From Candidatus Cloacimonadota bacterium (GTDB taxonomy: Bacteria; Cloacimonadota; Cloacimonadia; JGIOTU-2): a stretch of DNA of 64,000 nucleotides. Below the pieces are notes generated by a model. That model did not search any database, was not told the DNA's origin, and was given only the letters and a program-made list of their open reading frames with translations. Position numbers and translations under genes: made by a program. The DNA is taken from the NCBI GenBank assembly GCA_030613025.1, contig JAUWMT010000005.1, forward strand, positions 20,584 through 84,583. Reading direction: 5' to 3'. Shown here piece by piece: positions 3 to 15,487 of this stretch (position 1 is the first letter of the stretch; every line of letters starts with the position of its first letter).

Positions 3-2975
3 ACTGCCGAGATCAGCAATATCTACAAAAAAAACGGAAAAGTTCGCAAGGTTCATAATGTGCTTTTTGCACCTGATTTCGAAACTGTTGAGAAGATTCA
101 AAACAAGCTCTCGCAAATAGGAAATATCACTTCAGACGGCAGACCGATCCTCGGTTTGGATTCACGCGATCTATTCGAAATAGTGCTTGAAAGCTCAAAT
201 GATGCTTTCCTTGTTCCTGCACATATCTGGACGCCGTGGTTTTCTGCACTTGGTTCAAAATCCGGTTTTGATACTATCGAAGAATGCTATGACGATCTTT
301 CTGAACACATTTTCGCAGTTGAAACAGGGCTTTCCTCCGACCCTCCGATGAATTGGGTCTGTTCATTCCTGGATAAATATACACTCATTTCAAACTCTGA
401 TGCACACTCACCATCGAAGCTTGGTAGAGAAGCAAATTTTTTTGATACAGAGCTCAGTTACCATACAATTCGTGATGCAATGAAATCCGGTAATGATAAG
501 CAATTTTTAGGAACTATAGAATTCTTTCCCCAGGAAGGGAAATATCATTTTGACGGTCACAGGAAGTGCGGAATTTGCTGGGATCCGCTCCAAACGATCA
601 AGCATAAAGGCATCTGCCCTGTGTGCGGGAAAAAGGTCACTGTCGGCGTGATCAACCGCGTTGCCCAGCTTGCAGACAGAGCCGATCCAAAAGCGAGACC
701 GCACAGGCATAATTTTCATTCTCTTATCACATTGGATGAAATTCTCTCAGAAATTCTGGGTGTAGGCAAAAATTCTAAAAAAGTTGCCCAAGCTTATGAA
801 GCATTGCTGCAGAAATTTACATCCGAGTTTGATATTCTCTTACATACTCCACTTGATGACCTGCAAATAAAAACCAATGAGATCCTTACCGAAGCCATCA
901 GAAGAATGCGTAACGGACAGGTGCATATCGAAGAGGGATTTGATGGCGAATATGGAAGAATAAGAGTTTTCACAAAGGACGAAATAAAGGATCTGCAAAA
1001 CCAGGAAGCTCTTTTTTCAGATTTTACTGAAGAGATTAAAGCGCCTCCTACAAAACCACTCATCAACTTTGATATCGCATCATTTCAGAAACTTTATACA
1101 AAAGAGGAAGAGCCCAAACTTTTTATCGAAAAAGTTGAAAAAAAAGTAATAGAACAAACTCCCTCTGACTTTCTTGAGGAACTCAACGAAGATCAAAAGC
1201 TTGCAGTACAGCACTATCCGGGACCGCTGCTCATTTTGGCTGGACCGGGAACAGGCAAAACAAGAACACTTACTGCACGCATTGCTTATCTCATCAAACA
1301 GCGCGGTATCAAACCGACAAATATTCTTGCGGTGACCTTTACCAATAAAGCTGCTGAGGAGATGAAAGATCGGCTCGATAAAATATTGGACACCACCTCA
1401 AAAGAGGAACTACATATCTCTACTTTTCACTCTTATGGATACTCGATACTCAAAGAGCATGCATCATATTTCAATCGGGATTCGCAATTCAGCATTCTTG
1501 ATGAAACAGAAAAGCATCGTTTTCTGATCGAAAAAGTGGGATGTGATAAGAAAAAAGTAAAAACCCTTTCTGAGGAAATATCGCATATCAAGCAGCAGGC
1601 AATATCACGATCAAAGATCAGAAAAAAAGCAACTAAGGAACTCTTTGCAAAATACGAAAAAGCTCTGCGGCAATTCAATCTTTTTGATATAGAAGACCTG
1701 ATCTATAAACCGATCATATTTTTAAAGAGCGAGCAGAAAATCCAGAAAAAATATCAGAAAAAAATACAGTTTATTCTCATCGATGAATTTCAGGACATCA
1801 ATGCAGCGCAGTACCAGCTCATCAAACTTATTAAGCCGGAAAAGCAGGCAAATATCACTGCGATAGGTGACCCGAACCAGGCAATTTACGGCTTTCGCGG
1901 AGCCGATGTCGGTTTTATTAAGAAATTCCAGAAAGACTATTCTCAGACTACTATCATTTCCTTGAAGCATAGTTACCGCTGCACCAATACAATTTTGAGA
2001 GCTTCCCACCAGGTTATTGAGGAGCAGGAAATACTCTCCGGTTTGCAGGAAGGTGTGAAGATCAATATTTCCTCTCATGCCACAGATAAAAGCGAAGCAG
2101 AATTTATAGCTCGTGAGATCGAGAAACTCATCGGCGGTGTACGATTTTTCTCGATGGACAGTTCTATCACCGATGGAAGCGAGGGCTCGAAAGTAGCAAG
2201 TCTTTCCGAAGTTGCAATCCTTTGTCGGCTGAAGGCACAAATGCCTGTGCTGGAAAAGGCGCTCAATGACCATTCGATCCCCTATCAGAAAGTAACAGAA
2301 AATTCATTTTTCTTTGAAGAGCCCGTAAAATCAGTGCTCGATGTGCTGCGTCTTGCACTCAACCCGAGAAATATGTTTCTCATAGATGAACTTATCAAAC
2401 GGAATATTTTGACCATCCCCGACCTGAACGAGCTTAAAACCTGTCTCATAGAAAAGAACGTGCAGCAAGCACTTGAAATGATAGTTCAAAAATTTTTCAA
2501 AGGAAAGATATCCCAGCTCGATGAATCTATGAAGAAATTGATGAATTGTGCCGAGAACTTTGATGATGATTTTGATGCATTTCTGAAGTTCGCAATTCTT
2601 GGTGCCGGCATTGACACAAACGACTTCACTTTGGAACGGGTGAATCTGCTCACACTCCATTCTGCAAAAGGTCTGGAATTTGACTGTGTATTCATCGCAG
2701 GTTGTGAAGAGGGCATACTTCCCTACTCATTGTTCGAAGATAAAAAATGCGACATCGATGAAGAGCGCAGATTATTCTATGTTGGTATGACCCGTGCAAG
2801 GAACCTGCTGTATCTGACAGGTTCACAAAGTCGCTTCATTTATGGAAAAACTTGTAATTTTCCCCAATCTTCTTACATTAAAGCGATCGAGCAGGAACTT
2901 CTTGAGGAGAAAAAAATAGAATATAAGAAAAAGAAGAAACCTTCACACCCACAATCACAGCAAGAGCTATTCTAA
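3..2975 (+). CDS. EndoQ-like PHP-domain nuclease fused to UvrD/PcrA-type helicase (5' truncated by window edge)
   Basis: Frame stays open upstream of the listed GTG at 60 to the window edge (..AEISNIYKKNGKVRKVHNVLFAPDFE). EndoQ/TIGR00375-like motifs (GRPILGLDSRDLFEIVLE, PAHIWTPWFSALGSKSGFD, SNSDAHSPSKLGREAN, Cys4 CGICWDP..CPVCGKK), then helicase motifs LNEDQKLAVQHYPGPLLILAGPGTGKTRTL, DEFQDINAAQYQL, GDPNQAIYGFRGAD, VNLLTLHSAKGLEF, EERRLFYVGMTRA. Confidence 0.9.
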   Translation, partial: TAEISNIYKKNGKVRKVHNVLFAPDFETVEKIQNKLSQIGNITSDGRPILGLDSRDLFEIVLESSNDAFLVPAHIWTPWFSALGSKSGFDTIEECYDDLSEHIFAVETGLSSDPPMNWVCSFLDKYTLISNSDAHSPSKLGREANFFDTELSYHTIRDAMKSGNDKQFLGTIEFFPQEGKYHFDGHRKCGICWDPLQTIKHKGICPVCGKKVTVGVINRVAQLADRADPKARPHRHNFHSLITLDEILSEILGVGKNSKKVAQAYEALLQKFTSEFDILLHTPLDDLQIKTNEILTEAIRRMRNGQVHIEEGFDGEYGRIRVFTKDEIKDLQNQEALFSDFTEEIKAPPTKPLINFDIASFQKLYTKEEEPKLFIEKVEKKVIEQTPSDFLEELNEDQKLAVQHYPGPLLILAGPGTGKTRTLTARIAYLIKQRGIKPTNILAVTFTNKAAEEMKDRLDKILDTTSKEELHISTFHSYGYSILKEHASYFNRDSQFSILDETEKHRFLIEKVGCDKKKVKTLSEEISHIKQQAISRSKIRKKATKELFAKYEKALRQFNLFDIEDLIYKPIIFLKSEQKIQKKYQKKIQFILIDEFQDINAAQYQLIKLIKPEKQANITAIGDPNQAIYGFRGADVGFIKKFQKDYSQTTIISLKHSYRCTNTILRASHQVIEEQEILSGLQEGVKINISSHATDKSEAEFIAREIEKLIGGVRFFSMDSSITDGSEGSKVASLSEVAILCRLKAQMPVLEKALNDHSIPYQKVTENSFFFEEPVKSVLDVLRLALNPRNMFLIDELIKRNILTIPDLNELKTCLIEKNVQQALEMIVQKFFKGKISQLDESMKKLMNCAENFDDDFDAFLKFAILGAGIDTNDFTLERVNLLTLHSAKGLEFDCVFIAGCEEGILPYSLFEDKKCDIDEERRLFYVGMTRARNLLYLTGSQSRFIYGKTCNFPQSSYIKAIEQELLEEKKIEYKKKKKPSHPQSQQELF

Positions 2976-2976
2976 T

Positions 2977-3201
2977 ATGGCAGATTCATCACGCATTATT
3001 ATCATAAAATGCGATAAATGCAAAAGCAAAATTTTCAAATATGAAAAAGTGGGAAGAGGACATATTTTACGCTGCTACAAGAAAAATATTTTGGAAGATC
3101 ATGCAGTATATGAGAACAAAAAAGTACTATGCTCATGCGGAAACAAAATAGGAGTTGACAAAGGAAAGTTCATTATGATGAATGTTGTTCATAATGTATG
3201 A
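2977..3201 (+). CDS. small zinc-ribbon protein
   Basis: 74 aa with CDKC..C..CSCG cysteine pairs; starts directly after the helicase stop. Confidence 0.6.
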   Translation: MADSSRIIIIKCDKCKSKIFKYEKVGRGHILRCYKKNILEDHAVYENKKVLCSCGNKIGVDKGKFIMMNVVHNV

Positions 3202-3218
3202 ATGAGAAGGAACAAACA

Positions 3219-5742
3219 ATGATAAAAACATGTATTATCATAACAATTCTACTCACTGTATTTCTTCCGGAAATCTTTGCAGACGACAACTACGTCACTT
3301 ACACGGAGACCTTCCCGTGGATAGGACCAGAGGGAGGAGATCCTGAATTTGTCTTTGCAGAATTCATTGAAAACCAAAGCTTGTGTTACGTTTCCCAGAA
3401 ATTTACATCAGGATTAAAAGAATTTTATGAACCGATTATATATTTCTATTCTGGAGAATATCAATTCAATTGTGAGAGAATTTACAATAACGAAGAATAC
3501 AAAATAAAATTATTCAAAAATAGACTAAGTAAAAAAGAAAAACCACGACCATACATCCCAAATCCAAATCCTCAAACAATCATCGTCGACATAAATGGCA
3601 CAGGAAATTATACAACCATACAGGAAGGTATCGATAATGCATCAGATGGAGATATTGTTCTTGTTTATCCCGGAACTTATTATGAGAACATAGATTATAT
3701 CGGGAAGAACATCACTGTTGCAAGTAAGTATTACACGACAGGAGATGAAGCATACATTGACAGCACAATAATAGATGGTAATAATAATGGAAGCTGTGTT
3801 ATCAATAAAGATGGAGGTATAGAAGCAGGTATACAAGGTTTTACAATCCAATACGGAAGTGGATATGATGCTTATTATAAATATGGTGGTGGGATATTTA
3901 TAGGTTATGGTGATGATATTATAAATACGTTTAACATTTTAAATTGTAAGATTGAAAATAATTATGCAGATATAGGAGGGGGAATATATGTTAACGATTG
4001 TTTGGAACTACATTTGATGGGGACAAGAATTATTAACAATTATGCAAGAACTTCTGGAGGGGGTATATCAAAAGGAAGTGATGATGTAGATATAAATTTT
4101 TCAGAACAAGACCGCTGTGATATTTATATGAACTACTCTCCAATGGGGAGTGATATATATAACCATGGGGGAGATATGACAGTTTTTGTTGATACATTTA
4201 CCGTGCAGGAACCTGATAAATTTTACGTGTATTCACGTAATGACAGCGTCACAATGAATATACTTAATTACAAGATAGAGCCAATCAACCAGGATGTTTA
4301 TGTGTCACCTGACGGAAATAACAACAATAGCGGACTAAGCTTGAATGAAGCATATCAGAATATCTATCATGCTTTGATTATGGTAAAATCAGACAGCACA
4401 CATCCAAATACGATCCATGTTGATGAAGGATTTTACTCACCATCTTACTACAGGTGAGTTCTTTGCTCTCGGTGGGAAAGAGCACATCTCCATCATTGGA
4501 GCAGGAAAAGAGCTGACGATTCTCGATGCAGAGCAGACAGGTAGATTATATACAATAAAAAATATATCTGAATTTAGGTTAGAAAATATGACTCTTCAGC
4601 ATGGATATGATACTACAGTCGGCGGAATCGGTATTAGTAATAATTCCAATCCTATTTTGAGAAACATTAATCTAATAGATAATAATATTTCCGGTGATTT
4701 AATTACAACACATCTATATTGTGCTGAATATTGCAATCCAGTTTACGAAAATGTAACAATAAGTACTTCTTATCAACAAGTAAATGAAAAAGCAATTACT
4801 TCTGAGTGGTATTCAAATCCAATATTTATTAATTGTTCGGTCGTAGGCAACAAAACAAATCCACAAACAGGACATATAGGAGCGATTGATATTGGTACCT
4901 ATGCGAATCCTGTATTTTTAAACACTTTAATAGCCGATAATTATGGTGACATATGTAGTGGAATATCTAGCATATATAGTGGTGACGAGATATATGCAAT
5001 TAACTGTACAATTGTTGATAACGATAACTGTTCTGAGGGCACAATACGATTAGTATATAATAGCCATATTACACTTATCAACACAATACTCAGGAATGAA
5101 CCTGCAACAGAGATATGGTTCCACCCACAACATGAGCCAAATTCTGCAACAATAGAGTACTGCAATATCGAGGGTGGGATAGATGCAATAAATACAAATA
5201 ATAACGGCACTGTTTACTGGGGAGAAGGTAATATAGACGAAGCCCCGTTATTTGTCGGTGGAGATCCTTACAGTTATAAGTTAACAAAATATTCTCCCTG
5301 CGTAGATAAGGGAACTCCGGATACAACCGGCTTGAATCTACCAGCAACGGACTTAGCGGGCAATCCGAGAATATTTAACGGGAGAATTGACATCGGAGCG
5401 TATGAATGCCAGGACACAATTGGAGTGGATATTCCTGATACAACTTTTATCAATAATCTGTATCTTTTTCAGAATACACCTAATCCTTTTTCTAATGAGA
5501 CAGAAATACTTTTCATAACTGCAGACTACGAACGGGTTGAGGATTATTCACTTTCTATTTACAACACAAAAGGGCAATTGGTAAGAAGTTTCGATGGAAC
5601 AACTCATGAATTCTGGGTGAAAACAAAGATAGTCTGGGATGGCACAGATGAACAGGGCAAGCAGGTCGCACCAGGCACCTATCTCTACAAATTGGAGTAT
5701 AACGGGAATGCAATTGTTAGAAAGATGGTTCTGCTTCGCTGA
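3219..5742 (+). pseudogene. secreted right-handed beta-helix (DUF1565/PbH1-like) surface protein with FlgD-like C-terminal sorting domain; interrupted by a 1-nt frameshift
   Basis: ORFs 3198..4457 and 4417..5742 join at about 4446: TCT-T-ACT ACA GGT gives ..FYSPS/TTGEFFALGG. Signal peptide MIKTCIIITILLTVFLPEIFA. Parallel beta-helix repeats. C-terminus LYLFQNTPNPFSNETEI..VWDGTDEQGKQVAPGTYLYKLEYNG. Confidence 0.75.
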
Positions 5743-5750
5743 CGCTTCGC

Positions 5751-5784
5751 AATGAAAAATGTAAAATGAAAAATGAAAAATGAT
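5751..5784 (+). repeat. AAAATGTAAAATG-type low-complexity repeat immediately after a gene end
   Basis: ATGAAAAATGTAAAATGAAAAATGAAAAATG. Confidence 0.6.
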
Positions 5785-5864
5785 CCGTCTTCATTGCATG
5801 ACAGCGTGATAAATCCGGCTTCGTTGCACTGCGTGGTTTCAAGTCGTGAGAGAATTAGGAAAAT

Positions 5865-5897
5865 CTCCTCTAAAAAGAGGAGTCCGGCTTTAGCCGG
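5865..5897. repeat. double hairpin intergenic element
   Basis: CTCCTCT-aaaa-AGAGGAG followed by CCGGCT-tt-AGCCGG. Confidence 0.55.
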
Positions 5898-6221
5898 GAG
5901 GTGTGTTAAAATAAGTAACTCCTGTTTCACCACAAACCGACGGATATGGTGTGACAAAAGAGCGTGGGGTGAGAAGGGAATAATAATAATCATCCTCGGT
6001 TTTCATTGTATATTCTGAACACAGTGAAGAATCTATTTACTCAAGCTAAGAGAAATCTAATTGGAATGGAATCCCTTTAGAACGATAGACTCTTCACAAG
6101 CTCAGAGTGACAAATATTATTTTTTTTTTCGTATTTTTAGGTCAATTCCGCTTCTATCAAAATCAGCACTCAGCAGCACGCGGATAAGGCGTGTAATATA
6201 ACAATTAATATTCTACCACCC

Positions 6222-6287
6222 TTAGGAAATGAGATAGGAGTTGACAAAGGAAAGTTCATTAAGATGAATGTAGTACATAATGTATGA
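6222..6287 (+). pseudogene. diverged copy of the 3' end of the zinc-ribbon gene 2977..3201
   Basis: Encodes LGNEIGVDKGKFIKMNVVHNV* versus CGNKIGVDKGKFIMMNVVHNV* at 3136..3201; the 54-nt core has 3 mismatches, two of them synonymous GTT/GTA. Confidence 0.8.
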
Positions 6288-6307
6288 AACTATAATGAAA
6301 GGTTTGT

Positions 6308-6979
6308 ATGGGAAAAATAACTGAGAATGTGAAGCGTTTGCTTTACGAAGTGCCGGAAGGAATCGAGGTCGTTGCCGCAGTAAAGGCCAGAACCGCTGAT
6401 GAAATTCTTGAAGCGGTTGAAGCTGGAATATCCAAAATTGGTGAAAATTATGTGCAGGAAGCGCTTGCAGTTTATGAATCTATCGGTAAGAAAGCGCAGT
6501 GGCATTTCATCGGGCATTTGCAGAGCAACAAAGTCGTGCAGGTCGTGCCGATCTTTGACATGATCGAAACTGTTGATTCTGCTAAACTCGCACGTAAGAT
6601 CGATAAATACTCTGAGCTTAATAATAAAATAATGTCCATACTTATTGAAGTAAACAGTGGACGCGAGCCGCAAAAGAACGGCGTGATGCCCGAGGATGTC
6701 GAGCTTATTATAAGAGAAATTTCACCACTTCCTCATGTAAAAATTATGGGACTTATGACCATGGGACCATTCACCGGTGATCCGGAAGATGCTCGTTCCT
6801 ATTTTGTGGAAACACGCAAAATTTTTAATCATATTAAAGATATGAACATTCCGGATGTTACGATGAAATACCTTTCCATGGGCATGAGCAATTCATATAA
6901 AGTTGCAATAGAAGAAGGTGCGAACATCATTCGAGTAGGTACCAAACTATTTGGTGAGAGGGCTTGTAAATATGAGTAA
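6308..6979 (+). CDS. yggS: YggS/PROSC-family PLP homeostasis protein
   Basis: VAAVKARTADEILEAVEAGISKIGENYVQEA, WHFIGHLQSNKVVQV, SMGMSNSYKVAIEEGANIIRVGTKLFGER. Confidence 0.92.
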   Translation: MGKITENVKRLLYEVPEGIEVVAAVKARTADEILEAVEAGISKIGENYVQEALAVYESIGKKAQWHFIGHLQSNKVVQVVPIFDMIETVDSAKLARKIDKYSELNNKIMSILIEVNSGREPQKNGVMPEDVELIIREISPLPHVKIMGLMTMGPFTGDPEDARSYFVETRKIFNHIKDMNIPDVTMKYLSMGMSNSYKVAIEEGANIIRVGTKLFGERACKYE

Positions 6980-7442
6980 AAAGAATAACGATATACGTAC
7001 TCTGAAAAAAGGTAAAGGAATCGGGCAGATCATGAGTTATGAAGAAGGTATAGAACTCGAACTGCCAATGTATAAATCGGAGATCAAAGCCGGGTTTCCC
7101 TCTCCTGCAAGTGATTATATCGAATCCACACTCGACCTTAATAAATTTCTTATCAAACATCCTGCAGCCACTTTTTTTGTGCGCGTGGAAGGTGATTCCA
7201 TGATCGATGCCGGGATACATTCGGGAGATATTCTCATTGTTGATAGAACAGTTCAAGCCGAGAAGCAGAAGATAGTTATCGCAGCAATTAATGGTGAATT
7301 AACCGTAAAAAGAATATGGTATGATGGAGACAGACTATTTTTACAATCCGGAAATATTAATTTTTCACCAATCGAGATCACACACGATATGGATTTCCAC
7401 ATCTGGGGCGTTGTCACCTATGTAATTCACAAACCTGTATAA
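6972..7442 (+). CDS. umuD: UmuD/LexA-like S24 peptidase (SOS mutagenesis)
   Basis: GFPSPASDYIESTLDLNKFLIKHPAATFFVRVEGDSMIDAGIHSGDILIVDR with the S24 Ser region; start overlaps the yggS 3' end by 8 nt. Confidence 0.9.
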   Translation: MSKKNNDIRTLKKGKGIGQIMSYEEGIELELPMYKSEIKAGFPSPASDYIESTLDLNKFLIKHPAATFFVRVEGDSMIDAGIHSGDILIVDRTVQAEKQKIVIAAINGELTVKRIWYDGDRLFLQSGNINFSPIEITHDMDFHIWGVVTYVIHKPV

Positions 7443-7451
7443 ATAAGAATA

Positions 7452-7706
7452 GAACGCAGATTTTCGCTGATGATGCTGATAAACACTGATTAAGAATAAG
7501 AAAAAATGAAGAAAAATAAAATATATCCATCTGTGTTAATCCGTGAAAATCCGTGTGCTATTACATTGAAGAATGGCACACAGATTTACACTGATGAAAC
7601 TGATTCGCGCAGATTAAGAAAAGAATAAAATGAAAAAGAAATTAAATACAAAATATTTAACAGCGAAAATCCGTCTAATCCGTGTTCATCAGTGTCCTAT
7701 TCTTAC
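7452..7706. repeat. two tandem inverted-repeat units of the ATCCGTG/CACGGAT intergenic family
   Basis: Units acgcagattttcgctgat..aacactgatt / atccatctgtgttaatccgtgaaaatccgtg, then cacagatttacactgatgaaactgattcgcgcagatt / gcgaaaatccgtctaatccgtgttcatcagtgt. Confidence 0.65.
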
Positions 7707-9004: not shown

Positions 9005-9679
9005 ATGTGTGGAAGATTTGCTCGAATAAATACTGCAAAAGAGATAACGGAAATATTCAATCTCAATCAAATTGAGATCGAGCTCGGTCCAAGCTATAAT
9101 ATCGCTCCCACTCAGGACGTTGCGGTCATCATAGAAAATGGAAGCTCAGTACTCACTGCCATGCGATGGGGATTGATCCCTTTCTGGGCAAAAGATACTG
9201 CAATCGGCTCAAAACTCATCAATGCACGCGCAGAAACAGTCGATGAAAAACCAAGCTTTAAATACTCATTTCAGAAAAGAAGATGTCTCATAGTTGCAAA
9301 CGGATTTTATGAATGGCAGAAACGCGGATCAAACAAGTTCCCCTACTTCATCCATTTGAAGGATAATAAGCCCTTTTGCTTTGCAGGCATTTATGATAAC
9401 TGGAAATCTCAAGATGGCGAGAAGATTACTTCGTGCAGCATAATTACAACAGATGCTGCGAAGATCATAAAAAGCATTCATCCCCGTATGCCGGTTATTC
9501 TTTCTGAAGACAATTTCTCCTTTTGGTTCAAGAATAGTGACGCCAATACACTGAAGCAATTACTCATTCCCTATACAAAGAATGATCTCGATTATTATGA
9601 AGTCTCCACAGATGTAAATTCACCTGTAAATAATTATCCTGATTTAATAGAGCCATCCAATGATTTTCTTCATAATTAA
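9005..9679 (+). CDS. yedK: SRAP-domain protein (YedK/HMCES family)
   Basis: MCGRFA with catalytic Cys2, YNIAPTQ, MRWGLIPFWAKD, INARAETVDEKPSFK, RCLIVANGFYEWQ, HPRMPVIL. Confidence 0.93.
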   Translation: MCGRFARINTAKEITEIFNLNQIEIELGPSYNIAPTQDVAVIIENGSSVLTAMRWGLIPFWAKDTAIGSKLINARAETVDEKPSFKYSFQKRRCLIVANGFYEWQKRGSNKFPYFIHLKDNKPFCFAGIYDNWKSQDGEKITSCSIITTDAAKIIKSIHPRMPVILSEDNFSFWFKNSDANTLKQLLIPYTKNDLDYYEVSTDVNSPVNNYPDLIEPSNDFLHN

Positions 9680-9954
9680 TATTCCCTTTTCCTATTTTAA
9701 AAATTCAATTTACTTATTAGTTTGGGATTTTGGATTTAGAGTTAAGATTTTTTGTCATCAGGGAATGGTCCCTAACGACTCATAAAAAAATTACATTTAA
9801 TATTTCTCTTCGCTCCACTCTCTCCTACCTGCTGCGACGTAATCCCGCTGACTTGTCGGGGTTGGAAAGAAGACGAGTAGCGCCATCTTGCCAAGTCGTA
9901 TCCGCCAGCGGAGAAGACTGAAATGTAATGAAGGCGGATCACTTTTCACTTCTT

Positions 9955-10185: not shown

Positions 10186-10756
10186 ATGAGAGTAAAGAAA
10201 GAAAATTTTATTAAAGGAAGTTGTTTCCATATATACAATCACGCGGTTGAGCACCAAAATCTTTTCCGTAAAAAAAAATGATTATCTCAGAGTTATCAGT
10301 AAGTTTAAACAGAAAATACTATTATATCCCGCAACGATATTTTCTTATTGTTTAATGCCAAATCACTATCACTTCTTCATCCGGCAAGATAGTGATGTGC
10401 CCATATACAAAATCTTTAACGATATATTTTCGGGGTATACTTTATATTACAATCACAAATATAGCAGAAAAGGAACATTGTTTCGAAGTCCTTTGCAACA
10501 CAAAATAGTAGCAACAGAAAAATATTTTATCAGATTAAGCCTGTATATCCATTTCAATCCAGTGAAATCAAATCTTGTTAAAAGACCAGAGGACTGGATC
10601 TACTCAAATTATCTTGAATGGATTGGTAAACGAAAAGGGAAGTTATTTTGCAATGAGGTATGGGATTGGTTTGATCTAACACCGTTGGAATATTCAAAGA
10701 TGATGGAAGTTTATTCAGATGAAAAGTATGAGGAAGACAGGAAATTATTTGAATAA
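10186..10756 (+). mobile_element. REP-associated HUH (Y1) transposase, RAYT/TnpA_REP-like, with a frameshift at an A9 tract
   Basis: Frame from ATG 10186 (MRVKKENFIKGSCFHIYNHAVEHQNLFRKKK*) joins at A9 10270-10278 to ORF 10247..10756 (NDYLRVISKF..YCLMPNHYHFFIR HUH motif, LSLYIHFNPVKSNLV). Confidence 0.82.
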
Positions 10757-11974: not shown

Positions 11975-13036
11975 TTATTCATTAATCCTATTTTTTCTTC
12001 GAGTTACGATACCTGTTTTTATACTTTTCCCAAGCTCTTCACAACGCTCCCAAAAATGCTTTATATTCTCAATAGCTTCATGTGAAATATAAAAATCTTT
12101 GTAGCTTTCCTCGAAAACCAAACAGCGTTTACGAAATACCTCCCAGAAAAATTCATCTTCAGACCCATCGATCTCAAAATTTGTGTTCAATCGATTGAAA
12201 TACTTGAACAATTTCTTATGGATATAGTCCGCAGTCCTCGCATCAGATTCACATTTTTCAAGATCGAAATCATCTAAATCATCGTCCGTCCTGAAAGTAG
12301 TTTTTAACTGTTCATAACATCTTTTGCATATTTTTTTCACCGGTTCTTTGTTATTTTCTATGATCCATTCCGAAGGTGGAATCTGAAAAAATAAAATGTC
12401 TATCGTTTTTTCAAATTCCGTTATATCTGTTTTAAAAATATTGGAATTAAAATCATCAAAAGCAGATCTTATCAAATCAGTGATGCGTGAGACGGAAATA
12501 TGTTCGGGATTGAATTGAAAATGCAAATTTGAAAAACAGAAATAGCGTAGTGCATCCAGATGTCCTGTGCAGGAATTAGTTGTTTTTATACCTGGAAGTG
12601 AATTCCAGATGAGCACTGCCCTTTCTGCGATCGTGTCGATGCTTATAAATTCTTCAATGCTTAATTTCCCTATCACACGTTGCCAGTCATCATTGCTTAT
12701 ATCGAGGTCGTTAAAGGTATAACTGAAATATTGAATGATCTCTGAATCATCAACTTTTCTTTTATTACTTCCATTCTGATGAGATTTGTAATAAAGTCTG
12801 TGCAATACCGGAATATCCGGCAAGACATCTGGAGTTCCAAAATAATTCGCAATGTTCAAAGCTTTGCGTATATGCTCTAAACGTAATGTCCCGCAAGGTA
12901 ATTCCAATCGGTCAAAGGTGAAAAGGTTTTTATTTATCAATACTTGAAGTTCATTAACATCTTTGCATTTGTCGATAAGAGCTTCTATTTTTTCTTTTGA
13001 ATAAGAAGGATTTGCGAAAACAATCTTATAGTTCAA
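11975..13036 (-). CDS. hypothetical protein
   Basis: 353-aa ORF co-oriented with neighbours; no family recognised. Confidence 0.6.
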   Translation of the reverse strand: MNYKIVFANPSYSKEKIEALIDKCKDVNELQVLINKNLFTFDRLELPCGTLRLEHIRKALNIANYFGTPDVLPDIPVLHRLYYKSHQNGSNKRKVDDSEIIQYFSYTFNDLDISNDDWQRVIGKLSIEEFISIDTIAERAVLIWNSLPGIKTTNSCTGHLDALRYFCFSNLHFQFNPEHISVSRITDLIRSAFDDFNSNIFKTDITEFEKTIDILFFQIPPSEWIIENNKEPVKKICKRCYEQLKTTFRTDDDLDDFDLEKCESDARTADYIHKKLFKYFNRLNTNFEIDGSEDEFFWEVFRKRCLVFEESYKDFYISHEAIENIKHFWERCEELGKSIKTGIVTRRKNRINE

Positions 13037-13110: not shown

Positions 13111-14295
13111 ATCAAGCGTCACACCATCAACATTGAACATCTCATTGGGAAGTATAAGTACATCATAGTTTTCTTTTTGAATTGCCTTCATCACATCCTG
13201 ACCAGCCAGCAAACCGGCGACTGTCACATCCTTACCAAGAAATTCATTCTCGACCTGAATTACTTTCCACTTTTGATCCTCTTTAGAATTAAGCTCATCG
13301 ACCAATCCCTTTAAGATAGAATAGAAAGAAACGCCCGTCACAAAGAGCACCTTTTTGTTCCTGTGCTGTTTTAGCAATTCATTGGAATAATTTTTCCAAT
13401 TATCAATAAAATCACGAACAAGTCCGATACCATTCTCAATCTGGGGAAAATCCTCATAATACTCATCTGCTGGAATCGGCTCATCAGCAAGAAGAAAGAA
13501 TTCATCGGCAAGTGAAACAATTCCTGAACTATATTTCTCCAGAAATTCTCGCCGCCATTTTTCCGATTGTAAAATAACTTCTTTTGCCTGAGCTTTGCTC
13601 ACTTTGGGGAGTCGAGTTAGATCTTCCCTGAATTTCGTTAAACCAACCGGCACAATCCCGATTGACTGAACCGCAGGATATAGAGAAGCAAGATCAAATA
13701 CAGATCTTTCAAGTTCTACGCCATCATTCCAACCTGGAATAAGCACGATCTGAGTATGCAAAGTAATTCCATTATCTGCGAGGAACGTAAGCTTCTCCAT
13801 GACTGAAATTTCTTTTTTATACCTCATTATCTTCTGCCGCAGGGCATTATTTGTAGTATGCACAGAAATGTATAAAGGTGAGAGATGCTGTTCAATAATC
13901 CTCTCATAATCTTTTTTAGTGAGATTTGAAAGCGTGATAAAATTCCCGTGAAAGAATGAGAGCCGAAAGTCATCATCCTTCACTTTGAGCGAGGGTCGTG
14001 CATCAGGATGGATCTGATCTACAAAGCAAAAAATGCAGTTACAACCACACTTACAAACCTTCATCGGATATAATTCAAGTCCAATATCCTCATCGATATC
14101 TTTCTCAAAAAAATGGGTGAATGTTCTTTCTCCCCTTTTAATCTGCAGCGTAATCTGCTCATCAGATTGATAAAATATGTAATCAAGCTCATCATGAATT
14201 GCATGACCGTTTATTAAAAGAAGGATATCTTCTGACTGGATCCCGATTTCATCAGCGATAGTATCAGGTACGATAGATTGTATTTTTACAGGCAT
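13084..14295 (-). CDS. DUF512 family protein (PDZ-like N-terminus plus radical SAM-like cysteine motif)
   Basis: IQSIVPDTIADEIGIQSEDILLLINGHAIHDELDY, CKCGCNCIFCFVDQIHPDARPSLKVKDDDFRLSFFHGNFITLSNL, GWNDGVELERSVFDLASLYPAVQSIGIVPVGLTKFRE. Confidence 0.9.
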   Translation of the reverse strand: MPVKIQSIVPDTIADEIGIQSEDILLLINGHAIHDELDYIFYQSDEQITLQIKRGERTFTHFFEKDIDEDIGLELYPMKVCKCGCNCIFCFVDQIHPDARPSLKVKDDDFRLSFFHGNFITLSNLTKKDYERIIEQHLSPLYISVHTTNNALRQKIMRYKKEISVMEKLTFLADNGITLHTQIVLIPGWNDGVELERSVFDLASLYPAVQSIGIVPVGLTKFREDLTRLPKVSKAQAKEVILQSEKWRREFLEKYSSGIVSLADEFFLLADEPIPADEYYEDFPQIENGIGLVRDFIDNWKNYSNELLKQHRNKKVLFVTGVSFYSILKGLVDELNSKEDQKWKVIQVENEFLGKDVTVAGLLAGQDVMKAIQKENYDVLILPNEMFNVDGVTLDNVKMENVK

Positions 14296-14344
14296 AATAA
14301 TAAGAAAGGCGGGAATGAACCCGCCTTTGAAATGTTTTTATAAC

Positions 14345-15487
14345 TTAGAATTTGTATTCTTTTGCGAGAATTTCCTGAGCTGCCGAAAGACCTGCCCCCC
14401 ACTTGAAATTCCATCCAAGTTCGTGAAGCACTATTTCCAGTGCAGAGAGCACCGAAATAATATCGAATATCTCGATGTAACCCATGTGAGCAATACGGAA
14501 TATCTTACCCTTAATGGGAGCTTGTCCACCTGCAATAGTGAAGCCATATTTATCACGAAGTGTCTTCACCAGCGCAAGCCCGTCCACAGATTCTGGTACT
14601 TTGACCGCAGTTGCCACATCACATGAAGGATGGGCGTAGATTTCCAAGCCAAGTGCTTCTGCTGCTGCACGTACAGCTTTTCCAAGCACTCTGTACTGAT
14701 AGAACATATTTTCGAGTCCACGCTCTTTTATCATGTCAATTGCAACAAGAAGACCTTTTATGTGAAGCACAGAACCGGTATAGGGATCAGTATTTGCAGC
14801 TAATTTTTTGCGATATTTCTTCCAATTAAAATAATAATTTGGTTGTATGCATTCATCGATAACTTTCCATGCTTTCTCACTAATCGCAGCATAGGCGTGT
14901 CCCGGAGGAAGCATAAGTCCTTTTTGCGAGCCAGCAACACAGATATCAACTTTCCAGTCATCCATGTAGAATTCCTGTCCGCCGAGTCCGGATATCGCAT
15001 CAATAACGAGCAACGCATCGGTTTTACTTACGATTTCACCGATCTCTTTTACCGGCTGCACACTACAAGTTGAAGTTTCTGTAAGCTGCGTGTACACGCC
15101 TTTTACGTCGGGATTTTCCTTGAGAAGTTTCTCGATTAGAGCAGGATCGACAGCGGTGCCCCATTCAATATCAACATACAGTGGCTGTGCACCGAATTTT
15201 TCTGCGATCTCACCCCAGCGTTCACCAAATTTACCACCGCGAATAATGATGGCTTTATCGCCTGGATTGAGCACATTGGACATAGCTCCTTCCATTGCGC
15301 CTGTACCGCTGGATGAGAATATCAATACATCATTTTTGGTCTGGAAGATATATTTCAGACCTTCGATCACTTTTCCTACCTTTTCTTTGAACGCAGGGGT
15401 TCTATGATGAACCATTGGCTCTGCCATTACCTGCAGGATCTTTTCCGGAACCGGTGTAGGACCGGGTGCTAATAGATATTTTTTCAT
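14345..15487 (-). CDS. class V PLP aminotransferase (alanine-glyoxylate/serine-pyruvate type)
   Basis: LLAPGPTPVPEKILQVMAEPMVHHRTPAFKE, LIFSSSGTGAMEGAMSNVL, VAGSQKGLMLPPG. Confidence 0.92.
   Translation of the reverse strand: MKKYLLAPGPTPVPEKILQVMAEPMVHHRTPAFKEKVGKVIEGLKYIFQTKNDVLIFSSSGTGAMEGAMSNVLNPGDKAIIIRGGKFGERWGEIAEKFGAQPLYVDIEWGTAVDPALIEKLLKENPDVKGVYTQLTETSTCSVQPVKEIGEIVSKTDALLVIDAISGLGGQEFYMDDWKVDICVAGSQKGLMLPPGHAYAAISEKAWKVIDECIQPNYYFNWKKYRKKLAANTDPYTGSVLHIKGLLVAIDMIKERGLENMFYQYRVLGKAVRAAAEALGLEIYAHPSCDVATAVKVPESVDGLALVKTLRDKYGFTIAGGQAPIKGKIFRIAHMGYIEIFDIISVLSALEIVLHELGWNFKWGAGLSAAQEILAKEYKF

Follow-up and report, generated by a model that had tools for sequence, protein, structure and literature searches.

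The window analyzed here is a 64,000-nucleotide stretch on contig C20 of a Cloacimonadota metagenome bin (G000; 98 contigs, 2.83 Mb, 98% complete). Its first 7 kb carry the following features, among them two copies of one gene's 3' end that we term L and R.

60–2975, plus strand: UvrD-type helicase ORF, the upstream conserved flank (Pfam UvrD-helicase, E 5e-78).
2977–3201, plus strand: small CxxC (zinc-ribbon-like) gene of 74 aa, intact (ORF).
3139–3201, plus strand: L, the left copy of the duplicated 3' end, in frame within the intact CxxC gene (repeat search).
3203–6224, no strand: inserted block of about 3.0 kb, missing in three congeners and with an unrelated 1.4-kb block in its stead in G001.
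3237–4457, plus strand: 5' part of a beta-helix surface-protein gene, with its own N-terminal stretch and then beta-helix (ORF; the paralogue alignment breaks at about 4446).
4417–5742, plus strand: 3' part of the beta-helix gene, with an FlgD_ig / T9SS-type C-terminal sorting domain (Pfam FlgD_ig, 1.8e-8; CHU_C; Por_Secre_tail).
5853–5908, no strand: interspersed intergenic repeat, close to the insert's right end (many 47–56-nt matches in the family; query 2650–2705).
6225–6287, plus strand: R, the right copy of the 3' end, a displaced tail abutting the yggS leader (repeat search; orthologous R in G001).
6308–6979, plus strand: gene for a yggS-family PLP-binding protein, the downstream conserved flank (Pfam Ala_racemase_N, 5e-23; orthologs).

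The synteny of the helicase is kept in G001, G003, G005, G006, and G007, and orthologs of the 74-aa CxxC gene are present in most members of the family. The name zinc ribbon, given to this gene in an earlier sequence-only reading of the window, rests on the CxxC pairs in its sequence, as Pfam returns only a sub-threshold match to the UBR-box.

The defining feature of the locus is that the last 63 nt of the CxxC gene are present again at 6225–6287, as established by a repeat search of the window. The complete direct repeat (3139–3202 and 6225–6288) measures 64 nt, of which 58 are identical (91%, six mismatches), with a spacing of 3086. A chance origin was ruled out: a 48-nt pattern derived from the repeat matches in these two places only and in none of 100 shuffles, and self-alignment of the repeat gives an E value of 4e-18. 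The figure of three mismatches in about 54 nt that had been reported holds for the last 54 nt (3148–3201 against 6234–6287), while the accompanying list of synonymous changes needs correction on two points, as AAC/AAT lies outside this stretch and one of the three mismatches within it is a replacement, ATG/AAG. The 2.83-Mb genome contains only two copies of the tail, the next best match being 22 nt long, and the suggestion that the same 54-bp sequence might surround other cassettes of this genome was thus not borne out; what recurs elsewhere is the architecture, built with the 3' ends of other genes and in other genomes. Beyond the native gene, the tail was not found in 125 genomes of the class, and it had no match in viral contigs, so carriage by a phage or virus is not supported. 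A reading of CATAATGTAT as a dif/Xer site was dropped by eye since the second arm is missing, and inspection by eye revealed no form resembling attC, the mark of integron gene cassettes, in either repeat copy.

Between the two copies, the block holds a single gene for a beta-helix surface protein; Pfam identified a FlgD/T9SS-type domain at its C-terminus, and its family has approximately 100 homologous stretches in the G000 genome. The beta-helix gene described earlier is thus present, but it is split by a frameshift near 4446, as indicated by a 742-aa paralogue on contig C11; the first part of the gene (3237–3588) has no counterpart in this paralogue. Searches with Pfam and NCBIfam identified no recombinase in the window insert or in the G001 and G006 inserts described below (3.0, 1.4, and 4.6 kb, respectively), and no transposase with terminal inverted repeats was found at or in the window insert, where inverted pairs of at least 24 nt were searched.

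The same junction in related genomes exists in empty, filled, and differently filled states. In the congeners G003, G006, and G007 the site is empty, with the CxxC gene stop codon lying 26–27 nt 5' of yggS, which bears out the predicted empty site and establishes the uninterrupted order of helicase, small zinc-ribbon-like gene, and yggS as real in these three genomes. Together with the intact 74-aa ORF, the empty sites also support the earlier proposal of a cassette placed at the 3' end of a gene that stays complete. In G001, the closest relative, whose helicase shares 91% nucleotide identity with that of G000, the same duplicated tail surrounds a different insert of 1.4 kb, and the second tail copy again fronts yggS. 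This insert encodes a 222-aa ORF with no family match and has no significant sequence in common with the G000 insert; the two sister lineages have therefore used one site for different cargo. Pairwise genome alignment showed that the flanks overlap by 62–68 nt exactly at the insert, as predicted by insertion with end duplication. In other genera of the family, the gap is short in G009 and G010, and in G012, G015, and G016 it holds an ORF read from its sequence as MBL-fold-type. The short, empty, and differently filled gaps indicate that the conserved genes enclose a variable junction. In G005, the contig ends inside the CxxC gene (L113, contig C50) and yggS was not found in the 93% complete bin; a variable insert may be present there too.

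Two alternatives are addressed directly by these comparisons. The first is that the whole gene was duplicated in tandem, with cargo entering between the copies while the second decayed, and it draws on the fact that R has kept a clean coding tail that ends in a stop codon. Nevertheless, three congeners have one gene only beside yggS, a second full CxxC gene was not observed in this position in any relative examined, and the 250 nt 5' of R contain no significant trace of a gene body in either G000 or G001 (28 and 20 of 200 shuffles, respectively, score as high). The tandem duplicate that had been offered as the competing outcome thus fails, and we regard it as very unlikely. Instead, the empty sites combined with the unrelated insert of G001 within the same duplicated tail support the window block being an insertion at a hot spot. 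The second alternative, an artefact of assembly, is conceivable for a bin in 98 fragments, and the G005 contig does stop inside the CxxC gene; however, G001 was assembled separately and has the same architecture with a homologous right copy, which makes an artefact the least credible explanation of all.

The recurrence of this layout became apparent from a scan for duplicated CDS ends in 1.13 Mb of sequence from ten family members, mostly around beta-helix genes. In the congener G006, the 3' end of a Mut7-C RNase gene is duplicated over 82 nt with one mismatch, reaching 30 nt beyond the stop codon, and the copies enclose a 4.6-kb insert with two T9SS-type surface-protein genes, 5' of rpmE. The corresponding site is empty in G001 and G005, and the same gene end is followed by a different insert in G007 and G002. 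In G015, which belongs to another genus, the last 132 nt of a SHOCT-domain gene are duplicated (89%) on either side of an insert containing an IS256-type transposase remnant and an ORF6N gene; a few nucleotides beyond the far copy match the native downstream sequence of G016. Three of the four inserts examined have no recognizable recombinase. The four CDS-end cases (G000, G001, G006, and G015) in 1.13 Mb of mostly beta-helix-selected sequence, against none in 567 kb of other G000 regions, are too few for a claim of enrichment at beta-helix or surface-protein genes. Moreover, pairwise genome alignment identified several other intergenic inserts between these genomes that have no end duplication, showing that end duplication is not a general rule and that the layout is recurrent but not universal. 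Three further repeats were left uncounted: a tRNA-Glu case in G003 (L185), where the tRNA contributes just 9 nt to the start of a 163-nt repeat and the flanking sequences point to a different history; a 59-nt repeat upstream of a gene (L206); and a paralogous gene pair (L218).

Next to these architectural observations, weight had been placed on synonymous divergence between the two copies, an argument that we find weak and too thin for a diagnosis. Across the last 20 codons of G000, stop included, L and R differ in three silent and two replacement codons. Between G000 and G001, 3 of 60 positions distinguish the R copies, each a silent change, and four distinguish the L copies, and L differs from R at 6–7 of 60 positions both within and across genomes, with three of these differences common to G000 and G001. 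The last 24 nt of R in G000 equal those of G007, while the last 24 nt of L in G001 equal those of G003 and G006, so that L and R lean to different relatives, but they do so on two to three sites only and are contradicted by the leader, which directly after R in G000 resembles that of G006. Because the allele affinities conflict and the codon changes are mixed, we rest the case on neither. R can be compared with the four-fold sites in neighboring genes, 25.5% of which (154 of 603) differ between G000 and G001; the 3 of 60 in R depart from this with p 3e-5, indicating that R is clearly more conserved than free or neutral DNA. The low divergence extends over the yggS leader and the first yggS codons and then climbs. 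This conservation could stem from constraint acting on the yggS leader, from a recent exchange tract, or from R having had a coding role until recently.

This pattern of change bears on the possibility of a long target-site duplication, in which a staggered break of 60–130 nt would be filled in and foreign DNA joined between its ends. Both copies would then be resident, and the event would be seen at gene 3' ends because elsewhere the gene would break. The variable repeat length (63, 82, or 132 nt) suits such a process, as does the single difference in 82 positions between the G006 Mut7-C copies, which is what a recent resident duplication would leave. At the window locus, however, three L/R differences are common to G000 and G001, and R has changed silently only, unlike free DNA. 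The target-site duplications of transposons likewise place direct repeats on both sides of an insert, but the repeats here measure 63–132 nt rather than a short fixed length, and neither the window insert nor that of G006 contains a transposase. Elements producing duplications of such length (60–130 nt) are not known to us, and we consider this route unlikely.

Integrative elements (ICEs, IMEs, and islands) rely on tyrosine recombinases to enter the 3' ends of genes, and the present locus has several features in common with them: the 3' end is duplicated as direct repeats, the gene is intact, and relatives are empty. The window block could thus be the remnant of an integrative element, or one mobilized in trans, whose att lay in the gene 3' end; the 63-nt copies would be attL and attR, the att of the element would have restored the gene, and two different elements, one in G000 and one in G001, would have made use of this site. 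The restored gene 3' end, the clean empty sites, and the loss of left-copy identity within a few nucleotides of the stop codon in G000 and G015 are all consistent with this reading, as is the left edge of R, whose position barely differs between G000 and G001 despite their different cargo. A site-specific endpoint could account for this edge, and so, equally, could a single founding event common to both genomes. In contrast to known integrative elements, the inserts here lack integrase and mobilization genes, measure only 1.4–3 kb, and occupy three unrelated target genes; the integrase is absent from the 4.6-kb insert as well. The tail is also confined to its two copies in the genome and, beyond the native gene, is found neither in the 125 class genomes nor in viral contigs. 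An integrative element is accordingly possible but, in our assessment, rather improbable.

Two further systems offer parallels. Minimal mobile elements carry alternative cargo between two conserved genes and are moved by homologous recombination. The locus resembles them in its conserved flanks, in the different cargo that lies between the same conserved genes in the sister lineages G000 and G001, and in having no mobility genes, but it differs in the duplicated gene end at its border. A published model of homology-facilitated illegitimate recombination has been proposed for the displacement of T6SS effectors in V. cholerae and has been applied to Rhs loci as well: a conserved stretch of the incoming DNA would anchor by homology and the other end join illegitimately, so that the old 3' part is left downstream (PMC5361080). 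As in these C-terminal displacements, the incoming module attaches within or behind a conserved region of a gene, alternative modules occupy one place, no integrase is involved, and the old 3' part is kept downstream, R being contiguous with yggS and the site empty in relatives. Mobility genes are likewise missing from the modules of the window, G001, and G006, the G015 case having its IS256-type remnant. The differences lie in the tail, which is 63 nt long and comes from a small gene of housekeeping type that has no relation to the cargo, and in the cargo itself, a T9SS-type beta-helix surface protein.

By this analogy, a combination of one-sided homologous and illegitimate joining appears to fit the locus best and would need no recombinase. 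We place the probability that a block with a surface-protein gene was inserted between the CxxC gene and yggS in this manner at about one in two. The incoming surface-gene block would have joined at the junction of the CxxC gene 3' end and yggS. Homology on one side would have been provided by the CxxC gene itself, carried on the incoming DNA of a relative, and the other side would have been joined illegitimately. The CxxC gene would thereby keep or gain a complete tail; it is whole because its full 3' end lies 5' of the cargo, while the second tail copy, most likely the original, was displaced behind the cargo and still fronts yggS with its leader intact. Later swaps of cargo could proceed by ordinary recombination in the conserved helicase and yggS flanks. 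Since no donor was found that has the cargo behind the CxxC gene but lacks the second tail, the one-sided homologous joining is a step that we infer.

The locus exemplifies how large families of surface proteins spread through the compact operons of an uncultured phylum without visible recombinases, and its empty, filled, and differently filled states are all represented. Displaced gene tails represent a searchable signature for mapping such events genome-wide and for testing one-sided homologous joining. A far broader proposal would be that Cloacimonadota harbor recurrent recombinase-free cassettes, mostly of T9SS-type surface genes, that enter the 3' ends of ordinary genes and carry or create a second 3' end, making operon junctions safe docking sites for surface-protein swaps; we view this generalization as speculative and doubtful.

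Several other repeats and mobile features were observed in the family genomes. Further along the window, a REP-associated (Y1, IS200-like) transposase gene (10247–10756) adjoins TCCATCC..GAGTCGTTCCC repeats at 9954, 10126, and 10808. On the reverse strand of G001 (L109), an extra ORF of about 130 aa, GxxExxY-type by eye, lies between the S24 and polV genes (oriented 6361–7109) inside intergenic repeats of the CGCAGATT type, and G000 has the repeats alone at 7442–7700. Directly 3' of gene stop codons in L248 (1418), L249, and L234 (16181, minus strand) there is an interspersed repeat that begins GGCACTTAAAAA..AAACTTAC; it may represent the end of an IS256-type element and has many copies in G009. 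In G006, the region with the uncounted paralogous pair (L218, contig C67) encodes at 1008–2093 a tyrosine recombinase closely similar to integron integrases (TIGR02249, 231 bits against a cut-off of 265); small ORFs and the gene pair come after it. Elsewhere in G000, intergenic repeats at 11982–15785 of L302 (contig C33) are attC-like by eye (TAACAAGCGTGTCAGCGGG..CCGCACACGCCAAACATTAT, minus strand), and in L296 (contig C26) a repeat of 65–126 nt is located directly 3' of several ORFs in one array (7315–7440, 9226–9291, and 14257–14382).
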